Assembly: GCF_009765995.1 (NCBI RefSeq)
Contig: NZ_LMUI01000008.1
Coordinates: forward strand, 69,292 to 133,291
Reading direction: 5' to 3'
Origin: Methylocapsa sp. S129
GTDB taxonomy: Bacteria > Pseudomonadota > Alphaproteobacteria > Rhizobiales > Beijerinckiaceae
Length of the DNA: 64,000 nucleotides
The notes below the pieces were generated by a model. That model did not search any database and was not told where the DNA came from. It saw only the letters and a program-made list of their open reading frames with translations. A program made the translations under genes and the position numbers. Shown here in pieces: positions 47,892 to 52,450 of this stretch. Numbering within the stretch: the stretch's first letter is position 1; each line of letters starts with the position of its first letter.

Positions 47892-48056
47892 TTATTTCAG
47901 ATTGCCCGAGACTTCGTTGAAGGTCGAATTGAGCTGAGTGCCCAGGGCGGTGAGCGAAACGATGATCGCCACGGCGATCAGCGATGCGATAAGAGCGTAT
48001 TCAATGGCGGTGGCGCCTGATTCATTGGCGACGAGCTTCCTGATGGATCCGATCAT
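47892..48056 (-). CDS. Flp/Fap-type pilin
   Basis: 54 residues. Short basic leader MIGSIRKLVANESG, then the cleavage region G14/ATAIEYALIASLIAVAIIVSLTALGTQL with Glu5 and Tyr6 of the mature form, the type IVb pilin signature. GAGG lies 8 bp before this ATG; another ATG two codons earlier is less well spaced. Processed by a TadV/CpaA prepilin peptidase and assembled by Tad/Cpa machinery, none of which is in the window, so it is an isolated pilin gene with its own promoter and terminator. Confidence 0.9.
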   Translation of the reverse strand: MIGSIRKLVANESGATAIEYALIASLIAVAIIVSLTALGTQLNSTFNEVSGNLK

Positions 48057-48122
48057 TCTCATATCCTCGTGGAAAAAATTCATTTCCTTGCTTTGATTTC
48101 TGTTTACCGGAGCACGGAAAGA

Positions 48123-48152
48123 ATTATATTTTTCACGTTGCAATTGAGTTAA
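48123..48152 (-). promoter_or_regulatory. Predicted promoter of the Flp pilin gene
   Basis: Minus strand TTAACT (48152-48147), 18 bp, consensus TATAAT (48128-48123), about 65 bp before the start codon in an A/T-rich leader. Confidence 0.5.
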
Positions 48153-49937: not shown

Positions 49938-49981
49938 ATGTGGCGCGCGCCACATCCTCCGGGATGGCGTAGGTCTAAAAA
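49938..49981 (+). promoter_or_regulatory. Candidate Crp/Fnr-activated promoter (copy 1)
   Basis: Palindrome ATGTGGC-GCGC-GCCACAT at 49938-49955 (centre 49946.5), and a -10-like TAAAAA at 49976-49981. The 29.5-bp distance from centre to -10 puts the site at -41.5, the class II activator position. It is 115 bp upstream of the gene at 50071. The same arms, spacer length and distance recur at 51663-51706. The rest of 49764-50070 shows no gene. Confidence 0.65.
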
Positions 49982-50070
49982 GGCGTCTTCTAGGGGTGGG
50001 GCGCGATCCGGCGCGAGCTTTCCAAGCCGGAGCGCCCTCGGGGCGAATGCGAATTTGGGGACTAGCCGTT

Positions 50071-50421
50071 ATGCGCAGGTCGCTTCTGTTTGGCGTCATC
50101 GCCGTCGCCCTCATCCTCGCTTTGGGCGCCGCCAACGCCCTTGCGGCCACGCCCAGCGACCAGTCGGTCTTCGTCGCGCGCGGCCAACAGGCGCAAGCGG
50201 CTGTCGCCGGCGCCGGGTTGATTGAGGGGCGTTCGGCTTACAACGGCGACCAGGCTCAGGCGGAGCATCGCGAGGATCTGGCGGTCATCATCCGCAGCGT
50301 CATCGTGCTGGGAATCGCCGGCCTCGTCTTCAGCCTGAGCGCTGTCGGCGCCAAAGCTCTGTGGGTTCTGGATGAGGCGGAATCCTCGTCGCACGGATGG
50401 CCGCGTTGGCCTAACGGCTGA
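50071..50421 (+). CDS. Small exported/membrane protein, function unknown
   Basis: 116 residues: signal-like segment RRSLLFGVIAVALILALGAANALAA, a soluble stretch of about 45 residues (GQQAQAAVAGAGLIEGRSAYNGDQAQAEHRED), then a membrane span LAVIIRSVIVLGIAGLVFSLSAVGAKALW and a short tail. Not recognised. Preceded by the Crp-type promoter and followed 55 bp later by the DUF3307 gene, likely co-transcribed. An in-frame ATG at 50047 is an alternative start. Confidence 0.65.
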   Translation: MRRSLLFGVIAVALILALGAANALAATPSDQSVFVARGQQAQAAVAGAGLIEGRSAYNGDQAQAEHREDLAVIIRSVIVLGIAGLVFSLSAVGAKALWVLDEAESSSHGWPRWPNG

Positions 50422-50476
50422 TCGCCCGGTCGGCTTGAGCGCCGCGGCCGGGGGAGCCCGGGGGAGGGATCTTGTT

Positions 50477-50872
50477 TTGCCGCAGATTGGCCCTCTTGTT
50501 CCGCTCTGGACTTTCTGCATCGTCCTCGTCGCGATGGCGCTGAAGCATTTTGTCGCCGATTTCGCCCTCCAACCGAAATGGATCGCCCACGGCAAGGAGC
50601 GTCGCGAGGGTTGGTTGGCGCCGCTGGCGCTTCACGCGTTCGGCCATGCCGTCCTGACGCTGTGCGTCGTGTTGGTGGTCGCACCCCATTTGTGGTGGCT
50701 GGCTCTCGCCGACTTCGTCGTCCATGCGGCGATCGACCGCGGTAAGACGCTGATCGCCCAACGAGGCGGCTGGTGCGTCGACAAGGCGGGTTTCTGGTGG
50801 TTGCTGGGTTTCGACCAGTTCTTGCACCAAGTCACCAATGTGGCGATCGTCGCGGCCCTCTTCACGCTTTGA
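50477..50872 (+). CDS. DUF3307 family membrane protein
   Basis: 131 residues from a TTG preceded by GGAGGGA. Family features: KHFVADFALQPKWIAHGKERREGWLAPLALHAFGHAVLTLCVVLV and WWLALADFVVHAAIDRGKTLIA, with the conserved H, D and Q residues of DUF3307, then LGFDQFLHQVTNVAIVAAL. Three or four membrane spans. Function unknown. Convergent with the Crp regulator gene. Confidence 0.78.
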   Translation: MPQIGPLVPLWTFCIVLVAMALKHFVADFALQPKWIAHGKERREGWLAPLALHAFGHAVLTLCVVLVVAPHLWWLALADFVVHAAIDRGKTLIAQRGGWCVDKAGFWWLLGFDQFLHQVTNVAIVAALFTL

Positions 50873-50904
50873 TCGCGGCGCCCGCGGCGGCTCGAACCTC
50901 GCTT

Positions 50905-51585
50905 CTAGCCCGCTTCGGCGACAATCCGGCGCAAGCGCGCCGGGTTCGTCAGGACGATCGCGCCGCGCGTGCGGGAAATCGCGTCTTCCCGCTCCAGCGC
51001 GTTCAACATTTTGGTCACGAGCTCGCGATGCGAGCTGATGCGCGCCGCCAGTTCGGCGTGCGTCGGCGGCGGCGAGATGACGACGCGGCCGTCCGCTGTG
51101 GTGCGCGAGAGCCGAAGCAGCTCCGCGCAAAGGCGCTCATGGGCGTCGAAATGCGCCTGTTCGTGCGCGCGATTGTTATGCGCGCGGATGCCGGCCACCA
51201 GCTTGGTGAGAACCTGGTCGCATACGCTGGGATAGCGATGGATCATTTCGCGAAACACCGTCGCCGACATGCGTGCGACCGCCGCGTCCGTAATCGCCAG
51301 AATGCCCGCCGACCGCGGTTTTCCATCGATCGCTGAATATTCGCCGAAATATTCGCCATCGAGAATGTCGCCAAGAATGATCTCACGGCCTGACGTTCCG
51401 ATGACGACGCGCGCATGCCCGCCGATGACGAAGAACACGTCCGTGCCTTCCGCCTGGTCGTCGATCACCCATTGGCCGGCGCTGACCATACGCCAGGTGC
51501 AGCGCATATCGAGCGCGCGCACGTCCTCCGGGGCAAGCGAAGCGAACAGGGGCGCCAGCGCCAGTGATTGCCGATCTCGATTCAT
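50905..51585 (-). CDS. Crp/Fnr family transcriptional regulator
   Basis: 226 residues. N-terminal cyclic-nucleotide-binding barrel with EYFGEYSAIDGKPRSAGILAITDA, close to the phosphate-binding cassette FGE...PRSA of cAMP receptors; long dimer helix; winged HTH at 160-215 with THAELAARISSHRELVTKMLNALEREDAI. In the recognition helix Arg187 and Glu188 match the Arg-Glu pair of CRP, with Lys192 where CRP has Arg. It lacks the N-terminal cysteine cluster of FNR (Cys29 only), so it is not an iron-sulfur sensor. The gene lies between two promoters bearing ATGTGGC-N4-GCCACAT, the probable binding site. Confidence 0.92.
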   Translation of the reverse strand: MNRDRQSLALAPLFASLAPEDVRALDMRCTWRMVSAGQWVIDDQAEGTDVFFVIGGHARVVIGTSGREIILGDILDGEYFGEYSAIDGKPRSAGILAITDAAVARMSATVFREMIHRYPSVCDQVLTKLVAGIRAHNNRAHEQAHFDAHERLCAELLRLSRTTADGRVVISPPPTHAELAARISSHRELVTKMLNALEREDAISRTRGAIVLTNPARLRRIVAEAG

Positions 51586-51662
51586 GCGTTCAGTCCCCAG
51601 CTACCGCGAGCCGTCTCATTGCTTTTCTTCGCCACAAAACCTTCCGCGCGGCCGGCGGCGAC

Positions 51663-51706
51663 ATGTGGCTGACGCCACATCATCCGCGCCGACGCAGGAT
51701 TATAAA
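51663..51706 (+). promoter_or_regulatory. Candidate Crp/Fnr-activated promoter (copy 2)
   Basis: Palindrome ATGTGGC-TGAC-GCCACAT at 51663-51680 (centre 51671.5) and TATAAA at 51701-51706: again 29.5 bp from centre to -10, the class II (-41.5) arrangement. It is 80 bp upstream of the 30-residue peptide gene and 78 bp upstream of the divergent regulator gene, so the regulator may also control itself. Confidence 0.68.
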
Positions 51707-51785
51707 CAGATCATACAGCGGGATGTCGCGATCCCGAACCGCCCTCCGACGTGAAATTGGATGGGGCAGGGACCAGGAGGGTTCC

Positions 51786-51878
51786 ATGGACCATGCATCG
51801 AGCCACAACACGTTCAACATCCTGTTCATCGTTTCCTTCATCGCCAGCGTCGCGGTGGTGATGTTCCGGTTTGGATGA
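51786..51878 (+). CDS. 30-residue single-span membrane peptide
   Basis: Short polar N terminus MDHASSHN followed by TFNILFIVSFIASVAVVMFRFG, one membrane span almost to the end. AGGAGGG stands 4-5 bp before the ATG, the best ribosome-binding site in this neighbourhood, and the Crp-type promoter lies upstream. The size and layout recall accessory peptides of oxidases or transporters (CydX, CcoQ, KdpF-like), but no sequence match is claimed. Confidence 0.65.
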   Translation: MDHASSHNTFNILFIVSFIASVAVVMFRFG

Positions 51879-52141: not shown

Positions 52142-52450
52142 TCAGGCTCTATCGACACGCTGCATGATTGGAGGGTGAGCGGGCGCGGAGGGCGGCGCAT
52201 CGTTGCGCGCCACGACGACGCCATCATCAGCAGCGGCGGCGCCGCCAACCTCCTCTACCGGCCTCGTTGCGCAAGCGTCATAGCAATTTCGCACATCCGC
52301 GGGGTCGTTATCGAGAAAGAAGAATGCGGCGTCTACCGTCTGCGAATAGCCGTCGGTGGTCCGGGCCTGCATCGCCTTCCATGGCGCGGCCGCAAAGCCG
52401 CCGCAGGCGATAAGGACGAAAACGGCGAATCCAGATGCTGAACGATTCAT
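52142..52450 (-). CDS. Possible small secreted protein
   Basis: 102 residues. A signal-peptide-like start MNRSASGFAVFVLIACGGFAAA, then AFFFLDNDPADVRNCYDACATRP with two cysteines, and a low-complexity Ala/Pro tail. The ribosome-binding site is weak. Reading-frame character is acceptable but no family is recognised. The 263 bp between this gene and the 30-residue peptide show nothing else convincing. Confidence 0.4.
   Translation of the reverse strand: MNRSASGFAVFVLIACGGFAAAPWKAMQARTTDGYSQTVDAAFFFLDNDPADVRNCYDACATRPVEEVGGAAAADDGVVVARNDAPPSAPAHPPIMQRVDRA

Follow-up and report, generated by a model that had tools for sequence, protein, structure and literature searches.

The closest described systems to the one treated here are the CRP of Escherichia coli, the CRP of Mycobacterium tuberculosis and Clr of Sinorhizobium meliloti. 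E. coli CRP reads half sites with A at position 5, its site is centred 41.5 bp upstream of the start at class II promoters, and its targets are catabolic operons. The M. tuberculosis CRP has a consensus of the TGTGA-N6-TCACA type. Some of the E. coli features used for comparison below are given in PMC10127613. S. meliloti has 28 class III cyclases (PMC10127613, PMC10463352, PMC5498481), and one of these, CyaC, carries two haem b and a [2Fe-2S] cluster and responds to quinones (PMC10463352). The Clr operator core is given as GTNNCNNNNGNNAC (PMC10127613) and its half sites as HGTYHC (PMC10127613, PMC10463352, PMC5498481), and many Clr targets are of unassigned function (PMC5498481). The recognition helix of Clr contains R195, K197 and N199, while Glu is described there as not conserved (PMC10127613). 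The present locus is found in a stretch of 64,000 nucleotides from Methylocapsa sp. S129 (contig NZ_LMUI01000008.1, positions 69,292 to 133,291), hereafter the window, where a Crp/Fnr gene (crp) is flanked by two copies of the palindrome ATGTGGC-N4-GCCACAT.

Our reading of this locus, to which we assign a probability of about 0.77, is that crp would encode the apparently sole Crp-type cyclic nucleotide receptor of the genome, and that class III cyclases would supply it with cyclic AMP (cAMP), a CyaC-like enzyme being the best candidate. The cAMP-loaded dimer would bind TGTGR-N6-YCACA, here mostly as ATGTGGC-N4-GCCACAT, and from position -41.5 it would activate about nine promoters as a class II activator. 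The products would mostly be small exported or membrane proteins, among them a 116-residue protein made together with a DUF3307 protein, and a 30-residue peptide. What the sequences themselves show is the presence of the sites, their geometry, the single strong Crp-type helix-turn-helix (HTH) domain of the genome, and several operator-target links that recur in one relative.

Operators and Promoter Geometry

The sequence-only reading had placed two exact copies of the palindrome beside crp, each followed by a -10-like element 29.5 bp from its centre, and both are there. The putative Crp operator, given as a duplex, is ATGTGGCGCGCGCCACAT. The features of the locus are as follows.

49938..49955, no strand: operator 1, ATGTGGC-GCGC-GCCACAT, an exact palindrome centred at 49946.5
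49975..49982, plus strand: -10-like element CTAAAAAG, T-A at centre+29.5 (49976), predicted start at about 49988
50071..50421, plus strand: 116-residue protein with, by eye, a signal peptide and a transmembrane segment at the C terminus; translation could alternatively begin at an in-frame ATG at 50047
50477..50872, plus strand: DUF3307 membrane protein with a TTG start and four long predicted helices
50905..51585, minus strand: Crp-type regulator of 226 residues, cyclic nucleoside monophosphate (cNMP) domain 33-118, HTH 150-221
51663..51680, no strand: operator 2, ATGTGGC-TGAC-GCCACAT, centred at 51671.5 between the divergent crp and 30-residue peptide genes
51700..51707, plus strand: -10-like element TTATAAAC, T-A at centre+29.5 (51701), predicted start at about 51713
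51786..51878, plus strand: 30-residue single-pass membrane peptide MDHASSHNTFNILFIVSFIASVAVVMFRFG, with a perfect AGGAGG upstream
52142..52450, minus strand: 102-residue exported NCYDACA-type protein, a paralog of the product of an operator-bearing gene on contig C17

When up to three mismatches are allowed, the window contains six matches to ATGTGGC-N4-GCCACAT, namely the two exact ones and four with three mismatches, as compared with a mean of 2.8 in shuffled windows. The search was extended to the whole genome (G000; 6,873,913 bases in 62 contigs, 98.8% complete, with the window on contig C14) and to a panel of 100 genomes that includes it, 60 from the family (G000-G059) and 40 at the order level. 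This genome-wide search, which the sequence-only reading had proposed, gave six exact TGTGGC-N4-GCCACA sites in the S129 genome against one in the reversed-pattern control, 22 against nine when one mismatch is allowed, and 15 sites of the form TGTGR-N6-YCACA against two. All six exact sites lie outside genes according to a crude rule of our own based on GC content at third codon positions (GC3). The label intergenic stems from this rule and not from annotation, and it says little near L003 and L009, where the rule retained no frame. Exact sites occur in 28 of the 100 genomes. The S129 genome has the most, G099 has four (control two), and the remaining 98 have at most two, approximately as in their own controls; within this panel, the exact motif is thus specific to S129. 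An A on the left and a T on the right flank 11 of the 15 TGTGR-N6-YCACA sites of S129, one of 17 in G010, G008 and G007, and none of 19 in G005 and G009, and the flanked sites give an 18-bp operator ATGTGR-N6-YCACAT. The description as a TGTGGC-type palindrome is accurate for the exact sites, but the motif is better described as TGTGG-N6-CCACA, a relative of the CRP site. In the spellings tried, TGTGGN6CCACA was not found in the literature searched, which excluded other spellings and subscription papers.

The occurrence of T-A was counted at each offset from the site centre, for all sites in both orientations; outside the S129 genome the counts covered 11 of 11 sites of G005, eight of 15 of G009 and 17 of 20 of G010, G008 and G007. 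The offset centre+29.5 is the commonest in all three sets: seven of 30 oriented windows in the S129 genome (p 1.8e-6; largest count elsewhere 3), eight of 34 in G010, G008 and G007 (p 4.8e-7; elsewhere at most 4), and seven of 38 in G005 and G009 (p 1.7e-5; elsewhere at most 3), with a background rate of about 0.02 at other offsets. In the alignment the element is CTA or TTA followed by A/T-rich sequence, and it resembles the alphaproteobacterial -10. Since T-A is enriched at centre+29.5, the spacing is that of a class II activator site at -41.5, and the class II arrangement first noticed at the two window palindromes is now supported by three genome sets. It is from this geometry that we infer activation of the targets.

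The Putative Regulator and Candidate Cyclases

The window protein belongs to the Crp/Fnr superfamily, as it matches both the cNMP_binding family (PF00027, 57.1 bits with a cut-off of 27.5) and HTH_Crp_2 (PF13545, 52.5 bits with a cut-off of 27), and the gene proposed at 50905-51585 is therefore real. It does not reach the cut-off of the E. coli-type CRP equivalog in NCBIfam (PRK11753; 56.9 bits vs 266). When the genome was scanned with HTH_Crp_2, the window protein (54.9 bits) was the sole strong Crp-type HTH; the remaining 17 matches at E <= 0.001 score 29.1 bits or less and are mostly partial winged-helix domains. An alignment with orthologs and PDB entry 3d0s shows that the cNMP pocket keeps G81-E82 and R91-S92, and the recognition helix SSHRELVTKML retains Glu188 and is not that of Clr. 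The earlier suggestion that this protein reads the motif appears likely, given that it has the sole strong Crp HTH and that several relatives have the same kind of site beside crp.

The genome has 13 matches to class III cyclases. One of them, a CyaC-like membrane cyclase at about C14:138,400-140,020 (L154:406-2031), is encoded 18 kb away from crp, outside the window by about 5 kb. It is 54% identical over 542 residues to a cyclase found beside crp in relatives: in G029, G047 and JAJPKK010000256.1 a Crp ortholog (51-55% identity) is divergent to a membrane cyclase, although the G047 contig ends within the cyclase gene, leaving 273 matched residues. The crp-linked cyclases of these relatives show, by eye, a ferredoxin-like cysteine segment, and the layout of the S129 enzyme resembles that of S. 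meliloti CyaC. By analogy, a redox input to the regulon is plausible. No operator with two or fewer mismatches was seen just upstream of the S129 CyaC-like gene.

Predicted Targets in the Methylocapsa Genome

Nine of the sites form promoter units, and eight of these precede exported or membrane proteins of 30-131 residues, mostly of unassigned function.

Unit 1, 49938: the 116-residue exported protein with DUF3307
Unit 2, 51663: the 30-residue peptide, with crp on the opposite side
Unit 3, contig C20: a 30-residue peptide 70% identical to that of the window, then a 33-residue peptide
Unit 4, contig C51: a 38-residue peptide, with a glycine-zipper-like exported protein on the opposite side
Unit 5, contig C59: a 90-residue single-pass protein
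Unit 6, C17:812723: a 100-residue exported NCYDACA protein and a 57-residue membrane protein
Unit 7, C17:813960: a 121-residue membrane protein
Unit 8, C17:891604: an 86-residue exported SPYAIL protein
Unit 9, contig C30 (L004): no open reading frame; candidate short RNA

The -10 stands at the class II distance in seven of the nine oriented units. With the units spread over six contigs, and with six exact and 15 TGTGR-N6-YCACA sites across the genome, the idea of a self-contained mini-regulon had to be given up. That its targets are membrane proteins of unassigned function did hold: the 116-residue protein matched nothing in Pfam and NCBIfam profile searches, and beside it stand DUF3307 and the 30-residue membrane peptide. 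A Pfam search of seven further targets gave at best a glycine zipper below the cut-off (22.7 vs 25). The perfect AGGAGG and the existence of a 70% identical paralog on C20 argue that the 30-residue reading frame is a real gene, and the 38-residue peptide of C51 is related to the 33-residue peptide of C20 (15 of 25 residues identical). Two further tandem copies of the 30-residue peptide are found at G000:C26:51697-52036 (L183, L184). The target lists were filtered on Shine-Dalgarno sequence, hydrophobicity or codon-position GC, and genes with atypical starts may therefore be missed. A further site (L101) is found at a gene that we take to be fabI-like. A scan of a set of genome contigs with the single protein gave 81 stretches that matched a pattern, none of them a relative.

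In unit 9 the operator and -10 point at a stretch devoid of reading frames (L004:1400-1467, G000:C30, minus strand). The predicted transcript of about 65-75 nt would contain CCUCCCCCC and reach a GC-rich hairpin with T5 behind it; folding of an 83-nt stretch gave z -2.9. Alternatively, this hairpin may serve to terminate the convergent gene. A search of 11 genus genomes matched the S129 genome only, and Rfam gave one match for L001, L002 and L004, at 17.6 bits and thus below the gathering score of 50.

The protein encoded at 52142-52450 is 38% identical (4e-19) to the 100-residue NCYDACA protein of C17, and no operator with three or fewer mismatches was seen upstream of its gene. On the other side of the locus, a profile search of the window found a Flp/Fap pilin gene at 47892-48143 on the minus strand (61.3 bits).

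The DUF3307 Protein

The earlier assignment of DUF3307 (PF11750) to 50477-50872 was correct, the protein scoring 45 bits with a gathering cut-off of 23. A model predicted from 41 sequences has a predicted local distance difference test score (pLDDT) of 94.3 and four long helices, and in these sequences K23, H24, D28, Q32, H53, H57, H83, D87, K90, W107, G111, D113, Q114 and H117 are invariant. The presence of invariant polar residues inside a membrane bundle suggests a metal-binding or catalytic protein. A Foldseek search of the model against PDB gave no fold at E 0.001 (best E 1.4). Of the 60 family genomes, only G000, G007, G008 and G010 have DUF3307, and these are exactly the carriers of the close Crp ortholog. 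DUF3307 is also common in viral contigs, where 386 relatives were confirmed and 80 kept (L189-L268); in the literature searched, the term occurs in one paper, on a phage genome.

Conservation in Relatives

The close Crp orthologs of G010, G008 and G007 are 70, 67 and 66% identical to the S129 protein. Four operator-target links with homologous targets recur in G010. Its DUF3307 (60% identical over 109 residues) is encoded at a separate locus with a site of its own, TGTGGCGAATCTCACA; its 30-residue peptide has a one-mismatch site with CTA at the right offset; its SPYAIL exported protein (5e-8 to the S129 homologue) has a site; and the site in the intergenic region before the fabI-like gene recurs. 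G010 further has the site TGTGACAAACGTCACA ahead of a gene for a small exported protein that is convergent to crp. This protein corresponds to the 116-residue protein only in position and resembles it weakly, with 24 residues aligned at E 0.001 when the two sequences are compared directly. Beside crp in G008 and G007 stand two tandem genes for small exported proteins, each with a site. Judged by sequence, the regulon is real and partly conserved; its operator varies on a well-known kind, and the targets are the uncharacterised part.

The five genus-mates with another Crp (G001, G003, G004, G005 and G009; recognition helix NTRRETVSRE) have 10-16 TGTGR-N6-YCACA sites each. Canonical TGTGA sites in G005 and G009 (L103, L118) precede single-pass proteins of 74 and 75 residues that are 43% identical, and the theme of small membrane proteins may thus predate the change in the half-site letter described below.

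Alternative Explanations

Several observations weigh against our reading. As to the sites, the sister genomes have few exact ones (G010 two, one of which falls inside a frame; G007 and G008 none), for five of the 15 S129 sites (L095, L097, L098, L099, L100) no small target is evident, and three (L097, L099, L101) lie inside a frame by the GC3 rule. As to the promoters, C-A replaces T-A at the start of the -10 in the C51 and C59 units (L005, L006), and T-A is also missing at this offset for L101 and for the DUF3307 and fabI sites of G010. No site with at most one mismatch is found within 500 bp upstream of the two tandem 30-residue peptide copies on C26 (of four in the genome), the second S129 DUF3307 copy (C23), the DUF3307 genes of G008 and G007, or a second, weak match to the 30-residue peptide in G010. 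Outside the family, DUF3307 occurs without the close Crp ortholog in 12 of the 40 order-level genomes, and in the tree the Crp clade of the five genus-mates has a long branch (1.03) with an open fork at its placement.

The same regulator and operator might act mainly in repression, or in both directions, if the protein, bound at -41.5 or on top of the crp promoter, blocked transcription. Operator 2 faces crp as well as the 30-residue peptide gene, and its -10 stands at the class II distance on the peptide side and not towards crp; also, four of the five genus-mates have one or two sites within 320 bp upstream of their crp, as autoregulation would give. However, the class II activator distance is the commonest -10 offset in three genome sets, and we consider repression or a dual role unlikely. 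It is a good deal less probable that the sites belong to a transcription factor of another family and lie near crp by accident. Other winged-helix proteins do match the Crp HTH model weakly (the 17 mentioned above), but half site and spacing are CRP-like, relatives have their sites beside crp, and the half-site letter differs among genomes with different Crp clades. Least probable of all is that a short dispersed repeat accounts for the palindromes. Over 41 bp the promoter stretch of L004 is an 85% match to operator 2, and some promoters may therefore be duplicates; yet the N4 spacers are not alike, the distance to the -10 is the same in most oriented copies, and the equivalent genes of G010 use TGTGA variants. 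Class II activation by the Crp-type regulator thus remains our preferred reading.

The Half-Site Letter and Operator Specificity

The motif is a CRP site with G in place of A at position 5 of the half site. This position has A 53 times and G once in G005 and G003, A 20 and G 20 times in G010, G008 and G007, and A seven and G 23 times in the S129 genome. The counts used 11 of 11 sites of G005 and 16 of 16 of G003, and not those of G001, G004 and G009. The site pattern admits only A or G here; the S129, G005 and G003 letters were recounted by script, and those of G010, G008 and G007 were counted by hand. The S129 sites do not follow the TGTGA-N6-TCACA form, as nine of 15 have G on both sides and one has A on both sides. 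A Fisher test of S129 against G005 and G003 gives p 1.7e-13 if the half sites, which are not independent, are treated as such. Two G008 sites, TGTGATGATTCTCACA (L087:1501) and TGTGATGATAATCACA (L090:248), are found near genes that we take to be NnrS-like, and possibly they are the sites of another Crp/Fnr protein; some of the A in the G008 half sites may come from such sites.

The clade of the S129 Crp is firm (100/99). Given the long branch (1.03) and open fork, direct orthology with the Crp of the five genus-mates was not adopted, and the shift from A to G is therefore argued mainly within the clade of G000, G010, G008 and G007, where the change looks recent.

The sequence-only reading had pointed to Lys192 in connection with the altered motif. 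This does not agree with the data, since the M. tuberculosis CRP (RETVNK) and the three closest orthologs have Lys as well. As a specificity switch Lys192 was rejected because half sites of the Lys-bearing sister orthologs have 20 A and 20 G; and as the M. tuberculosis protein combines Lys with its TGTGA-N6-TCACA consensus, a Lys in the third contact position does not on its own lead to TGTGG. The helices read SHRELVTKM in S129 and THREAVTK(F/T) in the sisters, and the residues that differ from the closest orthologs, Ser185, Leu189 and Met193, are thus the candidates for specificity rather than Lys192. A wider picture can be offered tentatively, as something we would put at rather less than an even chance: a Crp clade caught midway in a change of DNA letter, in which the half sites of the sister genomes are split evenly between TGTGA and TGTGG and S129 has shifted most of its regulon to TGTGG. 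The regulon would then be a dedicated output for very small proteins of the membrane or for export (30-131 residues in most cases), fed by a redox-type CyaC-like cyclase and including a candidate short RNA with CCUCCCCCC.

Comparison with Known Systems

Here the joint change of a regulator and of its scattered operators can be followed inside a single genus, in a case that is compact and open to test. About a dozen small proteins of the membrane or for export that were otherwise anonymous, DUF3307 included, are brought under one probable cAMP-type signal, which would be a first handle on their function.

The S129 protein is like E. coli CRP in its domain layout, in the Arg-Glu pair of the recognition helix and in the residues of the cNMP pocket, and the operators have the 5-N6-5 spacing of CRP sites, their centre falling 41.5 bp upstream of the predicted start as at class II promoters. 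It differs in that half-site position 5 is mostly G and not A, in having Lys and not Arg as the third contact, and in that the targets are tiny membrane proteins and not catabolic operons. The best PDB sequence match is the M. tuberculosis CRP (3d0s, 3.6e-13), which shares the Lys of the third contact. Entry 7pza, which we take to be Clr, is a match but not the best (1.3e-12). Among the known systems the regulon would nevertheless appear to work most like S. meliloti Clr: there is one Crp-type receptor for many class III cyclases, a CyaC-like enzyme among them, TGTGGC-N4-GCCACA fits by inspection the Clr core, and the targets are likewise mostly of unassigned function. Unlike Clr, which lacks the Glu (PMC10127613), the S129 protein keeps the Arg-Glu pair.

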